DNA from: a bacterium
GTDB lineage: Bacteria > Vulcanimicrobiota > Vulcanimicrobiia > Vulcanimicrobiales > Vulcanimicrobiaceae
Reading direction: 5' to 3'
Assembly (NCBI GenBank): GCA_021832345.1
Contig: JAKBKY010000007.1
Coordinates: 62,001 to 126,000, forward strand
DNA length: 64,000 bases
The notes beneath the pieces are model-generated. The model was not told the DNA's origin. It searched no databases and worked only from the letters and a program-made list of their open reading frames with translations. A program made the translations under genes and the position numbers. Shown piece after piece: positions 51,426 through 63,830 of the stretch. Numbering within the stretch: the first letter of the stretch is position 1; every line of letters starts with the position of its first letter.

Positions 51426-52664
51426 GTGTACCAACGCCTTTTACGAATGTTCGGAGTCCTTGCGGTCATCGCCCTGGCCGCGTGTTCGGGGACGGGATCG
51501 ACCGGGATGACGCCCTCGATGCCCGCCCCTTTGCAACCTGCACTCCAAAATAATGTGGCCGCGTCATGTGCCGGCCCCGTGCCCGCCGGGTACTCGCAAT
51601 GTTTTGCCCTCATGCGCACCGATGTCGGTGCTCCGGTCGACCCGGCCATGCGCGTCATCGAGGGCAAAGTGCGCCAGACGACGACCCCCGCCGGTTACGG
51701 CCCGAGCGACCTTCGCTCGGCCTATTCGTTCCCCTCGACGACCGCCGGGAGCGGTCAGACCGTCGCCATCGTCGATGCCTATAACGATCCGAACGCCGAG
51801 AACGACGTGAACGTCTATCGCTCGCAGTTTGGGATCCCGGCGTGTACGACGTCGAACGGCTGCTTCCGCAAGGTCAATCAGAATGGCGTGCAAGGAAGCT
51901 ATCCTCGCGGCAACACGGGCTGGGGCCAGGAAATCTCGCTCGACCTCGATATGGTTTCGGCGGTCTGCCCGAACTGCCACATCCTCTTGGTTGAAGCGAG
52001 CAGCTCGTCCAATAGTAACCTCGATACCGCTGTCAATACGGCGGCGAAGCTCGGCGCCACCGAAATCAGTAATAGCTACGGTGGTAGCGAACAGAACGCC
52101 ACCAATGCGGCCTACAATCATCCGGGCATCGCCATCACGGCCAGCGCCGGCGACAGCGGCACCGGCCCAGAGCAGCCGGCATCCTATGCAACGGTGACCG
52201 CGGTCGGCGGCACGTCGCTGACGCGTGCGAGCAACGCGCGTGGCTGGACTGAGACCGTGTGGAGCGGAAGCGGAAGCGGCTGCAGTGCGTATGTTGCGAA
52301 GCCATCCTGGCAGACCGGCTCGGTCTTCCAGTGCCCGAATCGAACGAATAACGATGTCTCTGCGGACGCAGACCCGAACACCGGCGTAGCCGTCTACGAT
52401 AGCTACGGTTCACCGCGCAACACCGGTTGGCTGGTCTTCGGCGGTACAAGTGTTGCCAGTCCGGTGATCGCATCGGCCTATGCACTTGCCGGCAACGCTG
52501 CATCGGTGACGTACGGATCGTATCCGTACTCACACGCATCGGACTTCAATGACGTGACGTCGGGAAGCAACGGCACCTGCACGTACTTCTATGTCTGTAA
52601 CGCTGAAGTGGGCTACGACGGACCCACCGGAATGGGAACGCCGAATGGCGTAGCCGGTCTCTAA
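51426..52664 (+). CDS. Lipid-anchored sedolisin (S53) serine-carboxyl peptidase
   Basis: A 412-residue protein from GTG 51426 (GGAGGAG 5 bases upstream). Lipobox ALAACSG (C20). The S53 catalytic set is complete: E169 and D173 in WGQEISLDLD, oxyanion Asp D243 in TASAGDSGTG, and Ser S342 in FGGTSVASP. Sedolisins are acid-active endopeptidases, normally with a prodomain of about 180 residues; here only about 80 residues precede the catalytic core. This suggests an acid-active envelope protease and an acidic habitat. A structured leader upstream and a strong terminator downstream frame the gene as a single unit. Confidence 0.92.
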   Translation: MYQRLLRMFGVLAVIALAACSGTGSTGMTPSMPAPLQPALQNNVAASCAGPVPAGYSQCFALMRTDVGAPVDPAMRVIEGKVRQTTTPAGYGPSDLRSAYSFPSTTAGSGQTVAIVDAYNDPNAENDVNVYRSQFGIPACTTSNGCFRKVNQNGVQGSYPRGNTGWGQEISLDLDMVSAVCPNCHILLVEASSSSNSNLDTAVNTAAKLGATEISNSYGGSEQNATNAAYNHPGIAITASAGDSGTGPEQPASYATVTAVGGTSLTRASNARGWTETVWSGSGSGCSAYVAKPSWQTGSVFQCPNRTNNDVSADADPNTGVAVYDSYGSPRNTGWLVFGGTSVASPVIASAYALAGNAASVTYGSYPYSHASDFNDVTSGSNGTCTYFYVCNAEVGYDGPTGMGTPNGVAGL

Positions 52665-52677
52665 CCGACTATCCCGC

Positions 52678-52741
52678 CATGAAGAGGCCGAGCGTCGTTA
52701 GGCGCCCGGCCTCTTCATGCTTCCGCAAGCGAACGCTTGCG
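52678..52741 (+). terminator. Strong hairpin terminator plus adjacent palindrome after the sedolisin gene
   Basis: A perfect 13-bp stem CATGAAGAGGCCG (52678-52690)/CGGCCTCTTCATG (52707-52719), 14 bases after the sedolisin stop, is followed by a second perfect palindrome CGCAAGCG-AA-CGCTTGCG (52724-52741). There is no long U-tract but the first stem is the strongest in the window. Confidence 0.7.
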
Positions 52742-52776
52742 CCGCCATCCACCTCACCGTGCGTGAGGGCAGAGTG

Positions 52777-52895
52777 CACCGCCACAGAAACGCATCGCCG
52801 TCGTCAATGTAACTCCGTTGTAACCGCCCCGAGAGCACAATGAGGATACCGATGGCTGGGAACACCGGCCAGGCTATTCACCGCGAGGGGGCAAA
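52777..52895 (+). promoter_or_regulatory. Promoter-type dispersed repeat, copy A, with 11-bp-phased TGTAAC pair
   Basis: Nearly identical to 62390-62485. It contains CGCATCGCCGT, TGTAAC at 52808 and 52819 (direct repeats exactly one helical turn plus, 11 bp), then 11 bp to CACAAT (52836-52841), a plausible -10, and TATTCACCGCGAGGGGGCAA just before the cytochrome gene. Copy A has about 20 extra bases between CACAAT and TATTCACC. Winged-helix activators of the OmpR/SARP type bind direct repeats with 11-bp spacing placed like this. Confidence 0.65.
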
Positions 52896-52900
52896 TCGTC

Positions 52901-53422
52901 GTGAGCGGTTTACGCATGAGAATCGCAATTCCCCTGGTATCTCTGGGGTTTCTGGCAGTATGCGGGCTGTACGCTCGCTCGAGCGCGATGTCGACGCCGT
53001 ACGTCAGCGCCGCCTCCCCGCAAGATGCGGGGAGATACCTCGTTATCGTCGGCGGCTGCAACGACTGCCATACCCCGGGTTGGGACCAGTCTCAGGGCCG
53101 TCTTCCGGAGTCGAAGTGGCTTCTGGGGAGCGACGTGGGTTTCCGCGGGCCCTGGGGCACGTCGTATCCGGCAAACCTGCGGCTGTTTGTCGCTCATACC
53201 TCAGAGGCGAAGTGGTTGCGCCTCGCACATGCGGGCATGGGTGACCCACCGATGCCGTGGGCGAATCTGCATGCCCTGAGCACGAGGGACGCGCGAGCGA
53301 TCTACGCATTCGTGAAAGCCTTGGGCCCGGCCGGGGTCGAGGCCGCAGCCTATGTTCCGCCCAATCGCGAGCCGACGACGCCGTACATCGTCTTCGAACC
53401 CCGGCAACCCGCCCGGCCGTGA
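52901..53422 (+). CDS. c-type cytochrome paired with a CopD-like membrane protein
   Basis: A 173-residue exported monohaem cytochrome: signal sequence RIAIPLVSLGFLAVCGLYA, haem site GGCNDCHTPG at about residue 52, and PPMPWANL providing the Met ligand. GAGGGGG lies 9 bases before GTG 52901; ATG 52916 is an alternative that still keeps the signal. The next gene encodes a four-to-five-helix CopD/DUF2269-like protein, so the two may form a membrane redox pair. Expressed from the TGTAAC repeat promoter. Confidence 0.85.
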   Translation: MSGLRMRIAIPLVSLGFLAVCGLYARSSAMSTPYVSAASPQDAGRYLVIVGGCNDCHTPGWDQSQGRLPESKWLLGSDVGFRGPWGTSYPANLRLFVAHTSEAKWLRLAHAGMGDPPMPWANLHALSTRDARAIYAFVKALGPAGVEAAAYVPPNREPTTPYIVFEPRQPARP

Positions 53423-53434
53423 GGAACTCCGATC

Positions 53435-54016
53435 GTGACGGCGACAGCCGAGGTCCAGCCGCTCTTCTCGCCGCTTCCACTTCACCGGCAACTGATGTGG
53501 TGGACGGTCGCCTTCCCCGTCGTCATGATCGTCGCGCTCGTCGAGCGCAGCTTCTATCTGCTCAACTGGATCCACGTACTCTCGGGAGCGCTCTGGACCG
53601 GCGCCGACCTCTTCATGGGCTTCGTCCTCGGGCCGGTTCTCAGAAGCCTCGACATGCGCGCGCGCACGGCGGTCATCGCCTATCTCGTGCCGCGCACGCT
53701 GCTCTACTTTCCGATGGTCTCGCTCACCACGGGCACGGCCGGCTGGCTGTTGGCTTCATGGCTGGGTTTCCTTGTTCCCGGCCACGCGCAGTTCCCGTGG
53801 GCGATCGTCGCCTTGGCCCTCGTGACGATCATGACGATCCAAGGGCTGGGCGTTATGCTCCCAAACAGCTTGCGCATCTGGAGCGAGCTACGGCTCCCCG
53901 AGCCGGATCGCGAGCGCATCGTGCGACTCAATCGCACCAACATCGTCTTAGCCGGCGTGCAAGGCGTCATGCAGGTCGTCATCATCGTGGTCATGGCCCA
54001 CTTCGTGGTTGGCTGA
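53435..54016 (+). CDS. CopD/DUF2269-like integral membrane protein
   Basis: A 193-residue protein with about five helices. The first conserved segment, SFYLLNWIHVLSGALWTGADLFMG, has the WxHxxxGxxWxG pattern of CopD, DUF2269 and the membrane part of PuuD urate oxidase, in which the His may bind haem. It begins 12 bases after the cytochrome c stop. In PuuD a similar membrane domain is fused to a cytochrome c, so this pair may be a split oxidase-like unit; substrate unknown. The start is GTG 53435. Confidence 0.72.
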   Translation: MTATAEVQPLFSPLPLHRQLMWWTVAFPVVMIVALVERSFYLLNWIHVLSGALWTGADLFMGFVLGPVLRSLDMRARTAVIAYLVPRTLLYFPMVSLTTGTAGWLLASWLGFLVPGHAQFPWAIVALALVTIMTIQGLGVMLPNSLRIWSELRLPEPDRERIVRLNRTNIVLAGVQGVMQVVIIVVMAHFVVG

Positions 54017-54071
54017 AATGCTCCCGTAACCCGAGCATTCCGCTTTCTAGCGCGGTGTAAGCGCATTCATC

Positions 54072-54239
54072 TTTACGAACCTGCGCGAGAAGCTGATCAA
54101 GATCGGTGCCAAGGTCGTCAGCCACGGTCGCTATGTCGCGTTCCAGATGGCCGAGATTGCGATCTCACGGCAGTTGTTTGCTGCGATCATGCAGCGCATT
54201 GCTGCTTTGCGATCGCCTCCCATGGCAACGGCAACATGA
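54072..54239 (+). pseudogene. C-terminal relic of an IS1380-type transposase
   Basis: The 55 codons read FTNLREKLIKIGAKVVSHGR then YVAFQMAEIAISRQLFAAIM and end QRIAALRSP...stop. This is the conserved ending of IS1380-family DDE transposases, where the strand IGAKVVSHGRYV.FQMAE is diagnostic. Nothing upstream continues it; the membrane protein gene ends 55 bases before. A fossil that marks an older insertion next to the IS607 element. Confidence 0.7.
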
Positions 54240-54421
54240 GCACCCCGGAGTCTATGTAGGCCGGGAAAACGACGGGAGAACTGCGCCCTTTTGCGCACCC
54301 AATCGGCTTTTCGGCGCTCGGTAGCGCATACGTCCGTCGCCCGCGTTCCCATGGGCGTCCAAACCGTTCCTGATTCCATAGGCGTTTATTCTACGCCATG
54401 GAGCCGCGTGAACCATAGGGT

Positions 54422-55891
54422 TCACGACGCCGGCCGAACGCGTGTTGCCGGCGATTCGCGCCCGGGAGTTCCACCCGGCTGAACGGATTGATCGCTCGCC
54501 CGCGGGCGTTGCACGAATGCAGCCGCACACCTGCGAGGATCGCCTTGCGACGACCGCTCTGCGCTTTTCCGCGGACGCTCCGTTTCCTTCGCCTTGATCG
54601 ACACATGTCCGCACCCATCTTTGCAAGTCGATGCGGAGTGACCTCGATTGCTAGAAACGTACCTGTCTCGAAACTTCTGTGCACGGCGCGCCAGCACCAG
54701 CGCCGCCGCGAGATGCACGCTCAAGCCGTACCGGCGAGCGTACTTCTGACGGCCGATCTTTGAGCTATAGGCCGGATTGACGTGCAGCACCTCGACCCCG
54801 GCATCGTACGCGCGAGCGACGAGCGTTCGCTCGAACGCGCGATAGGCGAATGAGGAGAGCATCCGCTGTGTTCGCGAGCTCGCGTACGAGAGTTGTGCCT
54901 TCTTCTTCGCAAAATCCAACCGCTCGATCGAGATCGGGTTGCCGGCATGCACGGCATAGCCGACGATCTCCTTAATACAACCGGCAATCGCCGTCTTGGC
55001 TTGATGCGACGAGGCGCCTTGCAACGCCAAGAGCAGGTTGAACGATTTGACGATATTGCCGAAGCGGTCGGTCTCCGATACGGAAGCAAAGCCGACGTTG
55101 AGGTCGACGCCGATGCAGCCCATGACGAGTCGTGATTGTACCGGTTTCTCGAGCGCCTTGGTGCCGGCGAACATGCGCCAGCCTTTCGCATCCCGTAGGA
55201 AACGGTAGGAGATCGCTTGTTTCAAGCGGAGCGCTGTGGCCAGGTGCTCCGCACCATAGGCAAACCGAACCTCGAAAGAAACGTACCGCCGAACGGGGCC
55301 GTTTAAGCGAAGACGCACCGCGAAGCGATCGTCGCCCAGATGGGTGAGCACGCAGCCTTGGCAGCCTGCCGTTTCGTCTTTTGAGCCGAGCACGAAGAAC
55401 TGCGAAGTACGCTTGGTTTTCCAGGCATTCCGCCACTGCGCGTGCGAGACGAAGCCGTTCTCTTCCAGATGGTGCTGCGCATTGAAGAGCCTCCGCGAGC
55501 CAAAGCACAGACGCGGCTCGGAGGCTTCTTGAAGCGCATCGAGCCGCGTCCGCAAAGAGGCCATCCGGCGCTTCATGTGATGAATCTTCGCCGGCTTTGC
55601 TTCGCTCTTGATCTTCCCGGCAACCGCTTTGATTCGATGCTTCAGATCCGTGATCCGGCCAGGACGCAACTCGCGAATCGACAATTCCATGCCGTCCAGC
55701 GTAAACTTCACCGCATTGTACTGCCGCGACGTCAACTTGGAATCGCACATGAACTGCGGCTTGGAGATCGTTCTCCCCGCACGTCGCTGGGCATGGAGCG
55801 TACGCAGTGCACGCCCGAAAAGGTCGCCGTACGCGTCGAGCGCGCAAGTGGGCTCGTCATCGAGGGCAATCCGCGATTGATAGGTTCTCAT
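54422..55891 (-). CDS. tnpB: TnpB-family protein of the IS607 element, zinc-finger-less with atypical RuvC-III
   Basis: A 489-residue protein. RuvC-I GCIGVDLNVGFASVSETD; RuvC-II PISIERLDFAKKKAQL; then VNPAYSSKIGRQKYARRYGL then SVHLAAALVLARRAQKFRD. In this TnpB branch the zinc-finger cysteines are absent and the usual RuvC-III Asp (DxNAA) is replaced by SVHLAAA, so a His may occupy the third metal position. The last 90 residues are low-complexity Arg/Ser/Pro and likely reflect read-through of the guide-RNA region. Overlaps the tnpA stop by four bases. Confidence 0.85.
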   Translation of the reverse strand: MRTYQSRIALDDEPTCALDAYGDLFGRALRTLHAQRRAGRTISKPQFMCDSKLTSRQYNAVKFTLDGMELSIRELRPGRITDLKHRIKAVAGKIKSEAKPAKIHHMKRRMASLRTRLDALQEASEPRLCFGSRRLFNAQHHLEENGFVSHAQWRNAWKTKRTSQFFVLGSKDETAGCQGCVLTHLGDDRFAVRLRLNGPVRRYVSFEVRFAYGAEHLATALRLKQAISYRFLRDAKGWRMFAGTKALEKPVQSRLVMGCIGVDLNVGFASVSETDRFGNIVKSFNLLLALQGASSHQAKTAIAGCIKEIVGYAVHAGNPISIERLDFAKKKAQLSYASSRTQRMLSSFAYRAFERTLVARAYDAGVEVLHVNPAYSSKIGRQKYARRYGLSVHLAAALVLARRAQKFRDRYVSSNRGHSASTCKDGCGHVSIKAKETERPRKSAERSSQGDPRRCAAAFVQRPRASDQSVQPGGTPGRESPATRVRPAS

Positions 55892-56469
55892 TCGTTTGCC
55901 GCCTGACGCGCCAACGCACGTTCGATACTGATGGCCCGATTACGCGCCGAACGCCGCCCGTACAAACGCGCACAAAAACTCGTGAGAACCGCAATCATGT
56001 CGTGTACGAGATCGTCGTTCATCTCAGTCGAGTCCACGACGATGAGGTGTCTATTGGATGACGCAAGTGCAGCTTCAAGATACTCCGAGCCAAATCGGGC
56101 GAAACGGTCGCGATGCTCGACAACGATGGCGCTGATTGCGCTATTCGAGAGTAGCCGTAGAAGTTTGCGGCGCTTGCCGTTGAGCCCCGAGCCGACTTCG
56201 GCAACGGTTTCGACGACGTGGAGATCGTGCTCGGCGGCATAGTGCGATAGCCGGGCCAACTGCCGATCCAGATCGTTGCGCTGATCGTGGTTGCTCACGC
56301 GCGCATAGAGCGCGACGGCCGCAGGTTTTTCCTCCATCGGAACCTCAACGAGAATCGTTCCGCTGGGCGTCTTGCACCACGAAACCGGCATCGCGTTCTC
56401 TTTCGTCCAACGCCAGGCAGTCGTGTACGAAATGCCTTGACGCTGTGCCCATTCCGCTAACTTCACCAA
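55888..56469 (-). CDS. tnpA: IS607-family serine recombinase TnpA
   Basis: A 193-residue protein: MerR-like HTH at the N-terminus (KLAEWAQRQGISYTTAWRWT), then a serine-recombinase catalytic domain with ALYARVSNHDQRNDLDRQLA (nucleophile S59), EVGSGLNGKRRKLLRLL and VEHRDRFARFGSEYLE. The DNA-binding domain preceding the catalytic domain is the mark of IS607 transposases. Complete and apparently active. Confidence 0.93.
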   Translation of the reverse strand: MVKLAEWAQRQGISYTTAWRWTKENAMPVSWCKTPSGTILVEVPMEEKPAAVALYARVSNHDQRNDLDRQLARLSHYAAEHDLHVVETVAEVGSGLNGKRRKLLRLLSNSAISAIVVEHRDRFARFGSEYLEAALASSNRHLIVVDSTEMNDDLVHDMIAVLTSFCARLYGRRSARNRAISIERALARQAANE

Positions 56470-56673
56470 TTCATTGTCTCATAGGAACATACGTTCGTCT
56501 AGATGCGCTTAGCTTTCCCGCAGCAGTTGCCAACCCCGAATCACATCGCCGGGCCGAGCCTCGCAAGGCCGGAAACCGGCAATCTGGCATCGAAAGGCGC
56601 GGAATACCCCATCAACTGTCTGCTGCTCCGTCCACGCGGTGGTATGCGGCGTTCGCCAGGGAGGAACGCAACC

Positions 56674-57249
56674 ATGCCGATTACGACGATCGATCCACGA
56701 TCGGCCCTCGTGGTCATCGATATCCAAAAGGGCATCCTGACTCAGCCGACCGTTCACGACTCGCGGGCCGTCATCGACAATGTGGCGACACTAGCAAAGA
56801 CCTTTCGCGAGAAGCGGTTACCCGTCGTGCTCGTACGCGTGGGCTGGTCTGCAGACTTTGGAGATACGCTCAAAGCGCGCGTCGAATCGCCACGGCCTAC
56901 AGGCGCCGTAGCCGCCGACTTCATGGAGTATGTCGACGCGCTCGACGTCGATCCGGCCCGCGACATCCTCATATTCAAACGTCAGTGGGGAGCATTTTAC
57001 GGAACGGATCTGGACCTGCAGCTTCGCCGCCGCGGCGTTACGAATATCGTGCTCTGTGGCATTGCGACCAGCATCGGCGTCGAGTCTACGGCTCGCGACG
57101 CATTCGAGCGCGGGTATAATCTCACGTTTGCAGCAGATGCGATGAGCGACAGAAGCGTGGAGGCTCACGACCGCGCGTTACAGATCATCTTTCCGCGCAT
57201 CGGCGAGATAGGTACTACTGCAGATATCCTCGCGAAGCTGCCCGTCTGA
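56674..57249 (+). CDS. Isochorismatase-family hydrolase with Gly at the nucleophile position
   Basis: A 191-residue protein from ATG 56674 (GGAGG 10 bases upstream). ALVVIDIQKGIL supplies the conserved Asp and FKRQWGAFYGTDLD the Lys region. NIVLCGIATSIGVESTARDA has Gly where cysteine hydrolases (nicotinamidase, N-carbamoylsarcosine amidase) have the nucleophilic Cys (CVESTAR), as in true isochorismatases that also lack it. It may therefore hydrolyse a vinyl ether, or the nearby Cys may be used; the substrate is unknown. Its last 72 bases overlap the convergent regulator gene. Confidence 0.85.
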   Translation: MPITTIDPRSALVVIDIQKGILTQPTVHDSRAVIDNVATLAKTFREKRLPVVLVRVGWSADFGDTLKARVESPRPTGAVAADFMEYVDALDVDPARDILIFKRQWGAFYGTDLDLQLRRRGVTNIVLCGIATSIGVESTARDAFERGYNLTFAADAMSDRSVEAHDRALQIIFPRIGEIGTTADILAKLPV

Positions 57250-59904
57250 GGGCAACCGCCCCGTTAGCTCGGCTGGTGCTCGGTCATAGTTTCGATCAAC
57301 GGCAGTTACTGCTCTTGCGGCGCGTGCGCGCAAGGCACGTATGCGTTCCGTTGCCGGGGCACCCCACGATGCGGGCACATCGATATCCTCGGGAAGGTCG
57401 CCAAAGAGCACCGTAATGGCGCGGATGGCGGCAACGGAGCCGCGCTCGGCAAGTTCGATATATCGCTCCGCAACGTCGAGATCGACGCATGCGATCTCTG
57501 GGGAGAGCGCATAGTCTCCGGCTGTCGCCACGATCAGCTCCTTGCTCCGCGTGTGCTCGCGTACGCGGTTCACGCAGACCCTCAATGCGTTGAATGCGGT
57601 GTCTTCATCATGCACCGGCCAGAACGCATCGGCCAGTTCCATGCGTTGAACGGACTGCCCCCGAGCAGCGAGCAACAAAACGAGCTCGAGTTCTCGCTTT
57701 CCCAGGCGCAGTACCTCGCCGTTGCGGCGCAGGCGCCGGCGGAGGAGATCAACGTGGACGCATTTACGCGCCCGCTCCCCGGCTTCTCGGAACCGTTGAA
57801 CAAAGCGCGTCAGAGAACCGCACGTTACGTGATGTTCGCGGACCGCCGCGAGGGCCTCTCGATATGCAAGGAAGTCGCAACGCTCTCCATACCGCAAGGC
57901 TTCGTCGAGCAGAGCGATTCGTTCGGGATCGAAGCACGCCAGCGCGGTATATGCCAGCGTAACCCCCCAAAAACTGCGGGTCGCACCGGCGATTCTACAC
58001 GCCTCCTCGAGCGCAGCGAACGCTTCGTTCTCCTCCGGCACGGCAGCAGCGTACATCATACGTAGGGAGAAAACGTCGCCCATGGTGCGCTCCGCTCCAC
58101 TCCACGGCAATCCCCATGACGCATCGAGCATTTGCTGCGCTTCGCATGCGGCGAGATCATCGGGAACAAAAGGATCGCGCAGCAGCGCCAGCAGTTCCGT
58201 ACGATATCGCTCGAGCGCTTCATCGTCGCCAAACAGCCATGCCATCCATATGGCTTTCCCCAACGCGATCCTGGCATGCGTGGGATAGCGCGTTCTGCGC
58301 GCCGCGGCAACCATCCGCTCGATCGATGCTGTCGCGAGACCGGGTCTACCGCGCAAGAAGGCCATGCGCGCTTCGGTCGTATAGTGCTCGGTCAGCACAA
58401 TGTCGGAACGCGAGATAGCAGAGCCGTAACGCTGCCAGAACTCTGCATCGTCGTACTCGTTCCCATTGCTGATCGCACCATATGCACGAAAGAGGGCAAT
58501 GAACGCACATGCATCGTCGTTATCAGTCGTTGTTCCGTCATGGAGCCGCGATATCTCAAAGGAATCGAGCAGGCGAAATGCCTCCTGCCATTCTCCGCGA
58601 TCGGCGAGATGATAGCAAGCAATCGCGATGCACGCAGCGCGCGTCTCCAAGGGAACGCTCTGGGGAAGTCGCGCAACGATCTCGCGCACCTCTCCCGCGA
58701 GTGGGCCGAAGCGATTCTCCCAATAGATGGACGACAGCGCCCAAAGCTCCGGAAAGCGGATGAGGACGCTGCGCCCCAAGCGTTCGAGCACTGCAAGATA
58801 CCGCGGTTCCGGGAGGTTCATCGTGCCCGTGCCCATGCGAACGAGCGCGTGGGCGGCTTCGTCTTCGTCACCACGTTGCAGATGTAGCTCCGCGCATCGC
58901 AGATGATCCCCACGACGCCGCGCATTCGCAATAACTCCTCCCAGGGTGTCGTCGAACGTCGCTCCATGCAGGCGTGCGATCGCCGCACGAGCTATCGGAT
59001 GCAGCTCGTAGGTTCCGTCGATGCGTCGCGTCAGAAACGGTACGGCGCTCACCAAACGATCGGCGAAAGCCCGCGCCAGGAGCGCATCGCTGCCTTCGGC
59101 GAGATCTTCTGCACGAGGCTGTTTGATCGCAGCGCAGCGAACCGCTCCGATACGTAGGTCTTCCGGCAGCGAGCGCAACAACTGCTCGAGCAGCATGTCA
59201 GCGAGCTCCTGCGGTGAATTTCCGCCTCCCACCAGACCGTGTATGTCGCTACCTTCACGCATGTATCGTGCCACTTGCGTTGCAGCGAACGGCCAGCCGC
59301 CCGTCCAGGCATACAGGTGATTGATCTCCCCGGAAGAGACCGCACTGCCGGCGAAGAGTGCCGCGAACTCCCTCATCGAGAAGAGCAGTTGCTGCTCACG
59401 CACGGCGATGTTTTCGTGCGGGAACAAGGCATCACTCCAGCGCAGAGGAACGTCGTTGCGACTGCACAACACCAACGAGCCGCGCGGGCGCTTCGCGAAC
59501 AGCGTCGCCAGCAATGCGAGCGCTTCCCTATGCGCGACGATCTCTTCGACATTTTCGACGATCAAGACGCCGCATTCCGGAAACACCTCCCAGAGCTGTT
59601 CAAGGTATGCCCGTCGATCGTCAACGCTCGAGAACGCGAGAGACATCGCCTCGTCCTTGATGCGCCTGCCATGCTCTCCGGCGAGCATTGAGAACGCTGC
59701 GATCAAGCGTTGCGCCAGCGCGACGGTCTCGCGTACTCCCAGACAATCACAGACCGCGCTCTTCGGAAAGCGGCGGGCGATCTGCGCCGCCATGAAGGAC
59801 TTGCCGAAGCCCGCCGGTGCGACCAAGCGATAGACTTTAGCCTCGCAGGCGACGAGCGCGTCAATGAGATCGCGCTCGACGATATATGGCGACGTAACGA
59901 TCAT
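57178..59904 (-). CDS. STAND-type ATPase regulator with winged-helix (SARP-like) C-terminus
   Basis: A 908-residue protein. P-loop VAPAGFGKSFMAAQIARRF at about residue 30, Walker B-like GVLIVENVEEI, and the MalT-like motifs LVLCSRNDVPLRW and WTGGWPFAATQVARY, then about 400 residues of helical repeats. The OmpR-type winged helix lies near residues 720-815 (LLRRRLRRNGEVLRLGKREL, ADAFWPVHDEDTAFNALRVC). It resembles MalT/SARP hybrids that sense a ligand and activate transcription. ATG 59904 overlaps the stop of the upstream regulator (ATGA), so the two are co-translated and may form a complex. Confidence 0.85.
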   Translation of the reverse strand: MIVTSPYIVERDLIDALVACEAKVYRLVAPAGFGKSFMAAQIARRFPKSAVCDCLGVRETVALAQRLIAAFSMLAGEHGRRIKDEAMSLAFSSVDDRRAYLEQLWEVFPECGVLIVENVEEIVAHREALALLATLFAKRPRGSLVLCSRNDVPLRWSDALFPHENIAVREQQLLFSMREFAALFAGSAVSSGEINHLYAWTGGWPFAATQVARYMREGSDIHGLVGGGNSPQELADMLLEQLLRSLPEDLRIGAVRCAAIKQPRAEDLAEGSDALLARAFADRLVSAVPFLTRRIDGTYELHPIARAAIARLHGATFDDTLGGVIANARRRGDHLRCAELHLQRGDEDEAAHALVRMGTGTMNLPEPRYLAVLERLGRSVLIRFPELWALSSIYWENRFGPLAGEVREIVARLPQSVPLETRAACIAIACYHLADRGEWQEAFRLLDSFEISRLHDGTTTDNDDACAFIALFRAYGAISNGNEYDDAEFWQRYGSAISRSDIVLTEHYTTEARMAFLRGRPGLATASIERMVAAARRTRYPTHARIALGKAIWMAWLFGDDEALERYRTELLALLRDPFVPDDLAACEAQQMLDASWGLPWSGAERTMGDVFSLRMMYAAAVPEENEAFAALEEACRIAGATRSFWGVTLAYTALACFDPERIALLDEALRYGERCDFLAYREALAAVREHHVTCGSLTRFVQRFREAGERARKCVHVDLLRRRLRRNGEVLRLGKRELELVLLLAARGQSVQRMELADAFWPVHDEDTAFNALRVCVNRVREHTRSKELIVATAGDYALSPEIACVDLDVAERYIELAERGSVAAIRAITVLFGDLPEDIDVPASWGAPATERIRALRARAARAVTAVDRNYDRAPAELTGRLPSDGQLREDICSSTYLADARKDDL

Positions 59905-62102
59905 TGCCGAAAGCGCTCTGCAAGAGTACGCAGAGCGAGCGACGGTACGGCGCCGAGTTCGTTGCGTACCACCTGCGCGAAGCGCTCGTACGCGACGATG
60001 GCTGCTCGTGCGTCTCCTTCCAACGCAGAGCTGCGCATCACCAACTCGCAACCGTACTCGTCGCAAGAATCGGTAGCCAGCAGGTCGAGGCCGAGTGCGC
60101 GCAACTCTTGCGCATCACGGCAAGCAAGCGAGGACTCCGCCAGGGCGCGCACAAGTTCGTGTCTGAGGGCGTTTAAGCGCGCCTCGATCGGGGCGAACCA
60201 TTCGGCGCTGCACAGCCGCGGCGGACGCGCTGTTCTCACCAGGCTCCGGAATCGGCGAAGTCGCTCGATGTTCCCGTCTGCTATGACGGCACTCAACGCG
60301 GCGATAAGCTCCACCAGGTCTACCGTGGCTTCCCTCGACAGCGCATAGCGGCCATCCCGGAAACTCACCGTCTCCGGATATCCTATGCGCGCGCGCAGCC
60401 GCGAGACGGCGACCTTGAGGGCGCGCCGTGCCGACTCGCTATCGTGATCGGGCCAGATGCTCTCGGCCAATCGTTGCGCATTCATGGCTCGGTCGGGAGC
60501 CGCGGCCAACGTGAAGATCACGGCACATTCTCGCTGGGAGCAACTCAGCACAATGCCGTTCTTGCGAACCTCCCCTCTGAAGAGCGCTATCTCGATCGTT
60601 GCGTGGCCGCGCTCGCGATTTGCCAGCATACACGCCGCATCTTCCATAAAGCGATCGCCGATCGCGAACGCCAAGCGCGAAGCGTCTTCGGTCCGCCGCG
60701 TGCCATTCGCCGGCGAGCCGGTGAGCTGCAGAAGTGCGGCGAGTGCTTGCGCTCGCACGCTCGGTTCTTCTTGTTTTGGCGGGATAGGAATGCGCGGTAC
60801 GTCACCTCCGAGGAATATCGTCACGAGCGCCCGCTCGGCGCGTACCTCGTATTCCAACGCCGCATCCGGCAATGCCCCCGCGATGGCGCACGCGACGCTC
60901 CAATGCTCCTCCGCGATGCCCTGGATGCCGCGCAGAGCAGCGTTGCGCGCCAACTGCGCGTGTGCCACTGCCGCGACCGCCGTGCATTCTTCCGTCAAGG
61001 CCTCCAACTCCGCCCGTATCTCAACCTCTCGATCGCCGCACATGCGATCGAGCAGTACGGAACGATAGAGCCCCAGCGTACGAATCTCGGACGACGCGTA
61101 GCCCGCGATCCGTGGATCTTCGCATGTTGCCAGAGCGGCCGTCAGGTTTCCTATCGCCATGTGCGCGCGAGCAACGCTGACAATCACGGCGGCGTACTCC
61201 GCCGGAGAGAGGGTCTGCAAGGCGACCTGTGCGATCGCCGTGGCTTCCACCAGCCGTTCATGTGGGGTGCTGCGTGCTTCTCGTTCTTTGAGCGTTGCCG
61301 CCCATAGCCGTGGATGCTGCAACAGCACCGCAAAGGGTAGTGCCGTTGCCGTGGCTCGGCCGTTCTCGCTGAGCGCGATCCCATCGAGCAGTCCTGCCGC
61401 GCGTTCGAAATACTCAGCCACGATCGCCCAGCGCGCCGCGAGCAGCGGCTCACCGCCTCGCTCGGCCGCGACCGAACGGCGCAGACAACACGCGATCATC
61501 TCTTTCCCCTGCCGCGCCCGGACGGCAGCCTTCAGCAACGGATGCACCCGCTTGCGTCCATCGGCATCGCAGAGCAGCATCGGCACGTCTTTCATCCGCG
61601 ACACCCGATCGTCTGCGAGTAGCGGTTCATAGCCCTCGCAGGCGGTCCGAAGCAGCAGCGCTTCACGCGTCCCCCTCGTGCACGGCCTCAGCACCTGCTC
61701 GTCGAGGTAGTCGTAGAGATCATCGTATGCAGCCGAGCGAAGGTCGGCCAGCGCCTCGTCGAGCACTCCCAGATGCGCCAGGCGACGGAAGTAGAGCGCC
61801 CCGGCGGGCCAGCCGCGCGTCAACTCCACGATCTGCCCAAGCGCGGTTAGCGAGAGCCCGAAGGGGGCGAAAAGCATGCGCATCTCGACTTCGTCGAAGG
61901 CGAGTTGCGAAAGACCGATGATCGTCGCTCCGTTTCGCCTCGGACGCGCGCGGGACTCCTCGATGGGAGCGCGGACCCCGTTATCGCGCAGCATCGCGGC
62001 AAACGTCGATTTACCGTAGCCCGGCGGCGCGCACAGCGCTATCGGGTGCCCTGCGCGCCGCAGCTCATTCGCCAGTTCTTGCCGACGTGGTGAAGCGATC
62101 AT
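59901..62102 (-). CDS. SARP-family regulator with P-loop and BTAD domain
   Basis: A 733-residue protein from ATG 62102. P-loop ALCAPPGYGKSTFAAML near residue 25 with a compressed STAND region (VELTRGWPAGALYFRRLA), helical repeats, then winged helix (VRKNGIVLSCSQRECAVIFT, LAESIWPDHDSESARRALKV) and a C-terminal bacterial transcriptional activation domain (ELRALGLDLLATDSCDEYGC ... AAIVAYERFAQVVRNELGAV). That order is typical of SARP regulators, which bind 11-bp direct repeats upstream of -10 boxes. It is divergent from the repeat-promoter at 62390-62485. Confidence 0.87.
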   Translation of the reverse strand: MIASPRRQELANELRRAGHPIALCAPPGYGKSTFAAMLRDNGVRAPIEESRARPRRNGATIIGLSQLAFDEVEMRMLFAPFGLSLTALGQIVELTRGWPAGALYFRRLAHLGVLDEALADLRSAAYDDLYDYLDEQVLRPCTRGTREALLLRTACEGYEPLLADDRVSRMKDVPMLLCDADGRKRVHPLLKAAVRARQGKEMIACCLRRSVAAERGGEPLLAARWAIVAEYFERAAGLLDGIALSENGRATATALPFAVLLQHPRLWAATLKEREARSTPHERLVEATAIAQVALQTLSPAEYAAVIVSVARAHMAIGNLTAALATCEDPRIAGYASSEIRTLGLYRSVLLDRMCGDREVEIRAELEALTEECTAVAAVAHAQLARNAALRGIQGIAEEHWSVACAIAGALPDAALEYEVRAERALVTIFLGGDVPRIPIPPKQEEPSVRAQALAALLQLTGSPANGTRRTEDASRLAFAIGDRFMEDAACMLANRERGHATIEIALFRGEVRKNGIVLSCSQRECAVIFTLAAAPDRAMNAQRLAESIWPDHDSESARRALKVAVSRLRARIGYPETVSFRDGRYALSREATVDLVELIAALSAVIADGNIERLRRFRSLVRTARPPRLCSAEWFAPIEARLNALRHELVRALAESSLACRDAQELRALGLDLLATDSCDEYGCELVMRSSALEGDARAAIVAYERFAQVVRNELGAVPSLALRTLAERFRQ

Positions 62103-62389
62103 AACCGTACGCCGGCGGTCTACGCCGATCTCGCGGCGAGCGTGCAATGACGCACCGTTGCAAAGCAACTACGCCGGACGTTCCCCATACAACCGAACAT
62201 TTCGACCCAAGATTATCGCCGGCCTTGAGGAGTCGGCCCGGCCGCGGGCAGATGCACCGTTCGGATCGCCGCATGGCTGCGCTCGGCATCCTCGTCTCCA
62301 TCTGGTCACGCGGACCTCTTGCCGGTAGCCCTGCAACCCGGGTCTTCGGGCCCGTGCGTGAGGGTGGTCGAGGGGGATACTCGCGCCGG
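62103..62389. other. Divergent intergenic region upstream of the SARP operon
   Basis: No gene is supported. A stem-loop CGGGTC-TTCG-GGCCCG (62339-62354) with a stable UUCG loop is present. GTGCGTGAGGG just after it is shared with the sequence ahead of copy A of the repeat promoter (52759-52769), so homology between the two loci starts a little before the annotated repeat. Confidence 0.45.
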
Positions 62390-62485
62390 CACCATAGAAG
62401 CGCATCGCCGTTGTCAGTGTAACTCCGTTGTAACCGCCCTGGGCGCACAATGAGGACCTCGACTTATTCACCGCGAGGGGGCAAA
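62390..62485 (+). promoter_or_regulatory. Promoter-type dispersed repeat, copy B, with 11-bp-phased TGTAAC pair
   Basis: TGTAAC at 62418 and 62429 (11 bp apart), 11 bp, then CACAAT (62446-62451) and TGAGGA, ending TATTCACCGCGAGGGGGCAA at 62465-62484. Every element matches copy A in order and, apart from the deletion after TGAGGA, in spacing. It faces the FecR gene and is back-to-back with the SARP-like regulators, the classic place for a target of a divergently encoded activator. Confidence 0.65.
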
Positions 62486-62490
62486 CCACG

Positions 62491-62720
62491 ATGCATACCC
62501 TTCCCGCTACGATCTTTTCGACCAGTGCGAACCGCATGCTCCCGGCCGGCAGGCAGCCTCACCGAGCGCCCGGGGGGGCAGGCGCAACGCCTGCCAAATC
62601 TTCGTGGAAGTACGGACCCGATGGCTTGCACCAGGTGTACAATGGTGCCGGAGCCTGCGTTCTCCTGCGGGGGTTCCGATGATCGAAGACCGCCATGAAG
62701 AGCCGAAAAGGGAGGCCGCC
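62491..62720 (+). other. Long leader of the FecR gene with hairpin and doubtful 63-codon ORF
   Basis: An ATG at 62491 follows the repeat's GAGGGGGCAA in the same place as the cytochrome start at copy A, and opens 63 codons to 62682. The product (MHTLPATIFSTSANRMLP...) has no signal or motif and its reading frame contains a perfect hairpin GGCAGGCG-CAA-CGCCTGCC (62576-62594). It may be an untranslated or lightly translated leader rather than a gene. Confidence 0.4.
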
Positions 62721-63830
62721 ATGCGCGCTCGGTATGTCCGGTATGTACTCGCTCTCGTGCTGATCCTCGCGCCGATGGCATCCGGAGGGATACCGGGAGC
62801 CGCGAGCGGAGTCAAGACCCTCGGCAACCTGCGTGGCGATGTCGCGTATCAGTTCGCGAGCGAGAAGCCTCTGCCCCTCCCCGTGCGCACGGTGATTGTG
62901 TTGCACAATGACGCCTTCGCGATCACGGGCACCAAGTCACTAGGCGTACTGACGATGCCCGACAGTTCGCGCGTCCTCCTCGGCGCGAACACGCGTGTGC
63001 AACTCGCCTATTTCACGCCCGGTCGTGTGGCTAGCGCGAAGTTCGTGCTCTACGACGGCAAGATGCGCTTCAGCGTCGAGCATTACAAAGGCGCGCGAGC
63101 CAACTACATCTTCCAGACGCCCACCTCGCAGATCGCGGTGCGCGGCACGGTCGGGGACATTGGCCTCCTGCGAAACACGCTGCGGGTCAACGTCTACAAG
63201 CTGAGTAACCCGAACCTACCGGTGCAGGTCACCTTCAAGAATGGCCGGCTCTTCCTGTTGCATGCCGGGCAATCGTTGACCGCGTCGATCGTCAACGGCG
63301 TGATCACGGTTACGGTGATGCACCTAACGGCGCAGGCACTCACGACTTTCAGCGCGTTCGGCAACCCGGCGAACTTCGCCAAGGTGATCCAGGCGCTGAG
63401 CACCGGCACTACCGCGGTCGGCACCGCCGGAGCCGCTGCTGCCGCCGCCGTCGGCGGTGCCGCAGTGGTGAGTGCGGTCAAGGGGGCCGGCCCGGCGCCG
63501 AGCCCAAGCCCGGCGCCGAGCCCAAGTCCGACGCCGAGCCCAAGCCCATCGCCGAGCCCAAGCCCGACGCCGAGCCCAAGCCCGACGCCGAGCCCAAGCC
63601 CGACGCCGACCGGGGTGCCGATCATCATCAACGTCGCCACCCCGGCTCCGTTCCTCACGCCGCCGGCTCCGGGTGGCCCGCCGAATCCGGGGCCGCCGGG
63701 GCCACGTCCGCCGAATCCGGGACCGCCGGGGCCGCCGGGGCCGCGACCGCCGAATCCCCCCGGCCCGCACCCGCCTCTCCGGCACGCCGCACCGGCCGTG
63801 GCGTTCCAAACGAGGGAGGAGTTCGCATGA
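62721..63830 (+). CDS. FecR-domain envelope protein with Pro/Ser and Pro/Gly repeats
   Basis: A 369-residue protein from ATG 62721 (GGGAGG 6 bases upstream). Signal peptide RYVRYVLALVLILAPMASG, then a FecR-like beta domain (RTVIVLHNDAFAITGTKSLG, GANTRVQLAYFTPGRVASAK, FQTPTSQIAVRGTVGDIG), an Ala/Gly linker helix, a PSPSPxPSPSP tract (roughly 290-335) and a PPNPGPPGP tail. In metagenomic phyla such FecR proteins are surface scaffolds rather than partners of TonB receptors. The repeat tract is coded by AGCCCAAGCCCGACGCCG units prone to slippage. Overlaps the next gene by four bases. Confidence 0.82.
   Translation: MRARYVRYVLALVLILAPMASGGIPGAASGVKTLGNLRGDVAYQFASEKPLPLPVRTVIVLHNDAFAITGTKSLGVLTMPDSSRVLLGANTRVQLAYFTPGRVASAKFVLYDGKMRFSVEHYKGARANYIFQTPTSQIAVRGTVGDIGLLRNTLRVNVYKLSNPNLPVQVTFKNGRLFLLHAGQSLTASIVNGVITVTVMHLTAQALTTFSAFGNPANFAKVIQALSTGTTAVGTAGAAAAAAVGGAAVVSAVKGAGPAPSPSPAPSPSPTPSPSPSPSPSPTPSPSPTPSPSPTPTGVPIIINVATPAPFLTPPAPGGPPNPGPPGPRPPNPGPPGPPGPRPPNPPGPHPPLRHAAPAVAFQTREEFA

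Follow-up and report, generated by a model that had tools for sequence, protein, structure and literature searches.

SARPs have been described as activators mainly of actinomycetes, where they are tied to antibiotic clusters (PMC10936776). Here we report on a promoter cassette that occurs twice in a stretch of 64,000 nucleotides from a genome of the Vulcanimicrobiaceae (the window, meaning the whole of the DNA that was analysed), and on two adjoining regulator genes, SARP1 and SARP2. We regard it as highly probable that the repeat is a SARP-dependent promoter cassette and that SARP1/SARP2 switch on a small local set of genes for envelope electron transfer. On the afsS promoter of Streptomyces coelicolor, the AfsR box lies at -40 to -19, with its centre at -29.5, next to a poor -10 element (CACTGT) and a poor -35 element, and residue R92 of AfsR contacts T-38 and T-27 (PMC10936776). 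For PimR, a SARP-LAL regulator of Streptomyces natalensis, heptamer repeats at 11-bp steps and cooperative binding by at least two monomers were reported (PMC5930380), and PHO boxes likewise consist of two 11-nt direct repeats (PMC4415409).

Compared with AfsR, a large SARP seen in the promoter complexes 8hvr and 8k60, the window shows two 11-bp direct repeats in the same calculated register, a weak -10 (CACAAT here) without a good -35, a winged helix with a BTAD fold, and, within one protein or the pair, a STAND-type ATPase with helical repeats. The repeat itself, in contrast, is TGTAACY and not CGTT(T/C)ATC, the SARP domain is C-terminal in SARP1 and not N-terminal, two overlapping genes or a fusion with two winged helices take the place of one protein, and the predicted targets serve redox and envelope functions and not antibiotic regulation. 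PimR also joins a SARP domain to a large ATPase region of the LuxR/MalT type, but its SARP domain is N-terminal, its three CGGCAAG heptamers do not overlap the -35, and its target belongs to an antifungal cluster. The ATPase model of MalT, a STAND activator of Escherichia coli, matches residues 19-259 of SARP2 (2e-5; Walker A GFGKS), whereas MalT carries a LuxR-type helix-turn-helix in place of the OmpR-type winged helix found here. With PhoB, the feature in common is a tandem of 11-bp direct repeats to which winged helices bind (a binding that is predicted in our case); there is, however, no receiver domain here, and sequence and distribution misfit a phosphate regulon, as neither of the genome's two sites lies near phosphate genes and sites occur only beside SARP genes. 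Geometry and fold agree with a SARP activator; the box sequence, the split or double winged-helix design and the targets appear unlike those of the described SARPs that we found in the open literature, which is weak evidence. The same promoter geometry and fold are met here in an uncultured, non-antibiotic setting with envelope redox targets.

A tandem box at a fixed distance from the -10 hexamer

An earlier reading of this DNA, made from the letters alone (the sequence-only reading), had described two copies of a promoter repeat with TGTAAC boxes phased by 11 bp, and both copies were recovered with all the named elements in the same order. Positions 52782-52846 and 62392-62456 are identical in 58/65 bases (E 3e-19 in BLASTN against the window), TATTCACCGCGAGGGGGCAAA matches in 21/21 bases between 52875-52895 and 62465-62485, and a further stretch of 13/13 bases is shared upstream. 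In both copies the repeats start 11 bp apart and the second TGTAAC lies 11 bp from CACAAT (Table 1). The layout is less uniform further down, as the distance from TGAGGA to TATTCACC is 28 bp in copy 1 and 8 bp in copy 2. A genome-wide repeat unrelated to gene starts, which would have spoken against the proposal, was not found: TGTAAC-N5-TGTAAC, with at most one mismatch, occurs in the whole genome (2,342,452 bases searched, 98% complete) at two places, namely copies 1 and 2.

Ten sites from five genomes, whose distribution is described below, define the box. Invariant over all of them are GTAAC, 10-G, 13-G, AACC and the A..AT of the -10 hexamer, which reads CACAAT, TAAAAT, TACAAT, TATCAT or GATAAT at a constant spacing from the box. 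At every site the direct repeats, 11 bp apart, closely precede the -10, and the -35 is poor. When spacers of 3-19 nt between two YGTAAC were considered, only that of 5 nt was present in the loci, eight times. Upstream of the box, identity across genomes is 0.22-0.34; within it the values are 0.86, 0.77 and 0.62, falling to about 0.5 between the box and the -10 and to 0.25-0.39 beyond. Conservation is confined to the box and the -10, with flanks at background. If the hexamer is taken as -12 to -7, the box is calculated to lie at -40 to -19 with its centre at -29.5, the register published for the AfsR box on afsS (PMC10936776). At the calculated -38, T is present in 10/10 sites, and at -27 in nine, the remaining one having C.

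Table 1. Features of the two promoter cassettes, the regulator genes and the adjacent genes in the window
Feature	Position	Strand	Remarks
Promoter cassette copy 1 (box, -10, leader, ribosome-binding site)	52782..52895	+	ahead of cytochrome c gene
22-bp box copy 1	52808..52829	+	two 11-bp direct repeats, TGTAACTCCGT TGTAACCGCCC
-10 hexamer CACAAT copy 1	52836..52841	+	transcription start predicted at ~52848
Cytochrome c	52901..53422	+	CNDCH haem motif, lipobox-like signal
Membrane protein, 193 aa	53435..54016	+	downstream of cytochrome c
SARP2	57178..59904	-	MalT-like STAND ATPase, helical arm, C-terminal winged helix, partial BTAD-like tail
SARP1	59901..62102	-	shortened STAND region (Walker A kept), winged helix, BTAD
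Promoter cassette copy 2	62392..62485	+	divergent from SARP1
22-bp box copy 2	62418..62439	+
-10 hexamer CACAAT copy 2	62446..62451	+	transcription start predicted at ~62458
FecR-domain secreted protein	62721..63830	+	FecR 5.5e-8
Lipoprotein, 738 aa	63827..64000	+	weak NHL/virginiamycin-lyase-like repeats; runs past the window (L127:5828-8044)

Distribution of the box across the class

In the window's own genome (G000), both copies have in common the 26 bp that precede the box and a 21-bp ribosome-binding segment, neither of which is shared by the orthologs. As the copies share flanks without a counterpart in the orthologs, a single recent duplication is possible, so that the pair of copies alone is no evidence of a regulon and relatives were needed. 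The first set of relatives comprised 60 genomes and the class-wide set 117, with no relative of the same genus as the window's genome among them. Searching the 60 relatives for the box plus the -10 with up to three mismatches revealed a site without any mismatch ahead of the cytochrome c gene of G020 (TGTAACTCCGCTGTAACCGCGCGGGACGTAAAATG), a second, divergent G020 site at one mismatch, and two sites in G037, on the contig bearing its best SARP1 match. G020 (metagenome-assembled genome (MAG) DBS1-2.bin29, JAJYFL010000004.1) belongs to the same family but another genus, and its SARP1 ortholog (78% identical) and cytochrome c (82%) lie in one cluster with SARP2; G037 belongs to another family. BLAST with copy 1 against the same 60 genomes gave, outside its own genome, short chance-level matches only, because the box is too short at such divergence. 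A 26-base match on contig 1 of G020 was rejected as a site, its first repeat being missing and no proper -10 being present.

The pattern YGYAACN5YGYAACCN11ANNAT, which was fitted to the sites of G000, G020 and G037, has 11 matches in the 117 genomes, ten of which lie within 7.5 kb of a SARP2 ortholog, whereas the reversed pattern gave three matches in total. The eleventh, a single site in G025, was judged to be at chance level. The loci of G090 and G091 were read only once the motif was known from the other three genomes. Orthologs of SARP2 are found in G091 (78% identity), G020 (73%), G090 (73%) and G037 (34% at E 1e-124), the next match following at E 1e-69 and about 30% identity. All five genomes with such an ortholog, G000 included, carry boxes (5/5; three genera, two families), an association with a Fisher p of 3.6e-8, uncorrected for shared ancestry. 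Two boxes are present in G000, two in G020, three in G091, one in G090 and two in G037, and allowing one extra mismatch in the combined pattern adds a single weak and unconvincing place in the five genomes. The box and the -10 are kept before the orthologous cytochrome c gene in G020, G090 and G091, while homologs of about 50% identity in other genomes have no box in their loci, which means that the box follows the regulator and not the cytochrome family. The regulon that the sequence-only reading had proposed for SARP-type proteins at these boxes is supported, as the boxes follow the orthologs, keep a fixed distance to the -10 in the register of a SARP and stand at redox and envelope genes; its extent, however, is tiny and local, with two promoters here and one to three elsewhere. 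A broader STAND-SARP family of about 950-990 residues (around 30% identity to SARP2) is spread over the class without the box, including G000 (C5:153255-155831) and about 45 other genomes.

The SARP pair and competing explanations

The two regulator genes, for which co-translation had been proposed, overlap by 4 bp at the stop of SARP1 and the start of SARP2 (ATGA at 59904-59901). SARP1 shows an OmpR-type winged helix followed by a BTAD, as in SARPs, with both domains above the Pfam cut-offs (Trans_reg_C 4e-7, BTAD 7e-8); its winged helix spans residues 521-577 of 735, so the SARP domain is not N-terminal. SARP2 has the build of a MalT-type STAND protein, with a P-loop ATPase, a helical arm and a C-terminal DNA-binding domain, of which SARP1 keeps the Walker A only. 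Its winged helix (residues 728-785) scores 24.8 bits against Trans_reg_C, just under the cut-off of 26.2, and no match to the Pfam BTAD was obtained for the short tail behind it, so that the two-domain arrangement of SARPs is absent from SARP2. AlphaFold2 models built from five-sequence alignments reached a mean pLDDT of 80.6 for SARP1 and 75.3 for SARP2. In Foldseek, the best fold matches of SARP1 were EmbR (E 1e-6) and AfsR (E 1.3e-6), that of the C-terminal part of SARP2 was AfsR (8k60, E 2.9e-5), and the C-terminal parts of both proteins match AfsR in its promoter complexes 8k60/8hvr.

In G037 the pair is fused into one protein of 1104 residues, consisting of an N-terminal winged helix with BTAD, a SARP2-like ATPase with arm, and a second, C-terminal winged helix. 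Directly downstream follow a box, a winged-helix gene, another box and a lipoprotein gene. The product of that winged-helix gene, the third such protein of this locus (L122:9378-9857, 159 residues), is encoded directly behind its box, which suggests a feed-forward or autoregulatory loop. The equivalents of AfsR R92 and R94 are kept, and T88 is replaced by V, in SARP1, SARP2, the N-terminal winged helix of the fusion and the third, small winged helix, while the equivalent of K95 is not kept in SARP1 and SARP2. Box position 5, which T88 reads in AfsR, differs as well, and the V for T88 may go with this changed base. In G020 and G091, a protein of 426 residues with an aspartokinase/ACT-like part and a terminal OmpR-type winged helix is encoded beside the SARP pair (L094:4584-5864 and L158:4314-5594, respectively), an unusual combination that was assigned by eye only.

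Following the model of AfsR at afsS, two winged-helix domains from SARP1 and SARP2 would sit next to each other on the two 11-bp direct repeats at -40 to -19 and hold RNA polymerase on a promoter that offers a usable -10 but lacks a recognisable -35. The STAND ATPase of SARP2, together with its helical arm, could gate this binding on a signal, and the targets would be a small local set of envelope electron-transfer genes, to which one copying of the cassette in the window's genome may have added FecR and the lipoprotein. A more tentative and rather doubtful possibility is an obligatory pair, with SARP1 on one repeat, SARP2 on the other and assembly under the control of the SARP2 ATPase; the G037 protein would be the same pair in fused form. 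If true, a SARP-type activator would act here either as a heterodimer or as a single chain with two heads, and a module for envelope electron transfer in acidic and metal-rich habitats would be under its control. If the MAG name is taken to say so, G037 originates from Oak Ridge well FW021, for which a pH of 3.4 is on record (PMC11046850); the names of the other MAGs suggest mine-drainage sites and the phylum is probably Eremiobacterota, neither of which could be confirmed. Box, regulators and targets are defined to the base, which opens binding and activation to study with purified domains and short DNA, and no culture of the organism is needed.

Could the boxes belong to another OmpR/PhoB-type response regulator, the SARP pair being a mere neighbour? 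The build of the PHO box is similar and the winged helices also score against VanR and PhoB-type regulators, but there are no sites in the rest of the genomes or in relatives without a SARP2 ortholog, unlike what a widespread regulator would leave, and in Foldseek, response regulators rank far below AfsR and EmbR for SARP1, and AfsR is the top match of SARP2, so we hold this to be unlikely. GTAAC-type -35 elements occur at promoters of extracytoplasmic sigma factors, and the motif might be such a promoter in place of an activator box; given the tandem repeat with its fixed 11-bp phasing, the ordinary -10-like hexamer (TAAAAT, TATCAT, CACAAT) and a presence that follows the SARP genes, this appears very improbable. 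Repression by a SARP pair bound at the boxes would suit a position that spans the region of a -35 element, yet a promoter search of 62100-62760 found none of the sigma-70 type, so that without a sigma-70-like -35 there would be little to repress, and AfsR activates from the same register (PMC10936776); we think that repression is improbable, too. A possible, if rather doubtful, explanation is that the window copies are a recent duplication or a small mobile repeat, with copy 2 driving nothing useful. The flanks shared only by the two copies fit it, as do the unmatched open reading frame (ORF) behind copy 2 and the lack of a counterpart at SARP1 of G020, where copy 2 is absent upstream; on the other side stand the limitation to two copies in the genome, the retention of box and -10 before orthologous genes elsewhere and the absence of inverted repeats bounding the cassettes, as a mobile element would have. 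This explanation can hold for copy 2 alongside SARP-dependent activation at copy 1.

Several observations weigh against a SARP-dependent cassette. The published rule for SARPs places the 3' repeat 8 bp from the -10, and its agreement with our sites hinges on how the repeat is drawn, the distance being 6 bp for the 11-bp unit, 10 bp for TGTAACC and 11 bp for TGTAAC. Neither protein is a standard SARP, the STAND region of SARP1 being shortened and the BTAD of SARP2 truncated, and no box faces the SARP genes themselves. G020, G090 and G091 belong to one genus, leaving only three independent lineages. The copy at FecR is without a counterpart elsewhere, its predicted start lying about 260 bp upstream of FecR, and an envelope gene of G020 and G090 lacks the box although its -10 and leader are similar, so that membership drifts.

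Predicted target genes and neighbouring features

The neighbours of the boxes encode cytochrome c, a membrane protein, a cupredoxin, FecR and lipoproteins and do not form an antibiotic cluster, in line with the envelope and redox role that had been proposed. Behind copy 1, the cytochrome c of the predicted cytochrome c/CopD-like pair could be verified (PDB match to the cytochrome subunit of fructose dehydrogenase, E 1.7e-5), whereas the 193-residue membrane protein, the CopD-like member, has no Pfam or NCBIfam match. Orthologs of this protein, 85-88% identical, always lie beside cytochrome c in G020, G090 and G091; matches on plasmids were limited to its distant homologs, with ~27-30% identity, on haloarchaeal plasmids, and viral contigs gave none. 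G020 and G091 have back-to-back boxes, which face cytochrome c with the membrane protein in one direction and, in the opposite one, a plastocyanin-like lipoprotein (Copper-bind 1e-22; its PDB matches are plastocyanins). No ortholog of this cupredoxin was found elsewhere in G000, G090 and G037 in a search without a positive control. A third box in G091 precedes a 190-residue envelope protein, of which the window's genome has a distant homolog only (25%), and the lipoprotein behind the second box of G037 has weak propeller repeats. The boxless envelope gene of G020 and G090, with its cassette-like -10 hexamer and leader (L094 11860-11930 and L159 2340-2420), has the look of a gene that lost its box or joined the upstream operon.

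Copy 2 precedes the FecR and lipoprotein genes (overlapping by 4 bp), as the sequence-only reading had it, but their link with the box is specific to this genome. With ATG 62721 as the most likely start of FecR, about 235 bp separate it from the end of copy 2, which is followed immediately by an unmatched ORF at 62491. FecR was rejected as a conserved partner of the SARP pair, for G020 has no FecR homolog at E 1e-5, and is a probable target in this genome only. The ORF in question (62491-62682, 63 codons), directly 3' of copy 2, has a good ribosome-binding site, is without a family match and is a candidate leader peptide or remnant. An RNA leader or riboswitch was dropped as an explanation, since an Rfam search of 52600-62800 gave no relevant match.

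The targets are separated from SARP2, in the window's own genome, by an isochorismatase gene and an IS607-like element. This element (54422-56469, minus strand), which is absent from the G020 cluster, encodes a resolvase-type protein (193 residues) overlapping a TnpB-like protein (489 residues). Between an S53-like peptidase gene and the cytochrome promoter, a strong hairpin at 52678-52719, with 17-nt arms that are 94% complementary, is probably a terminator.

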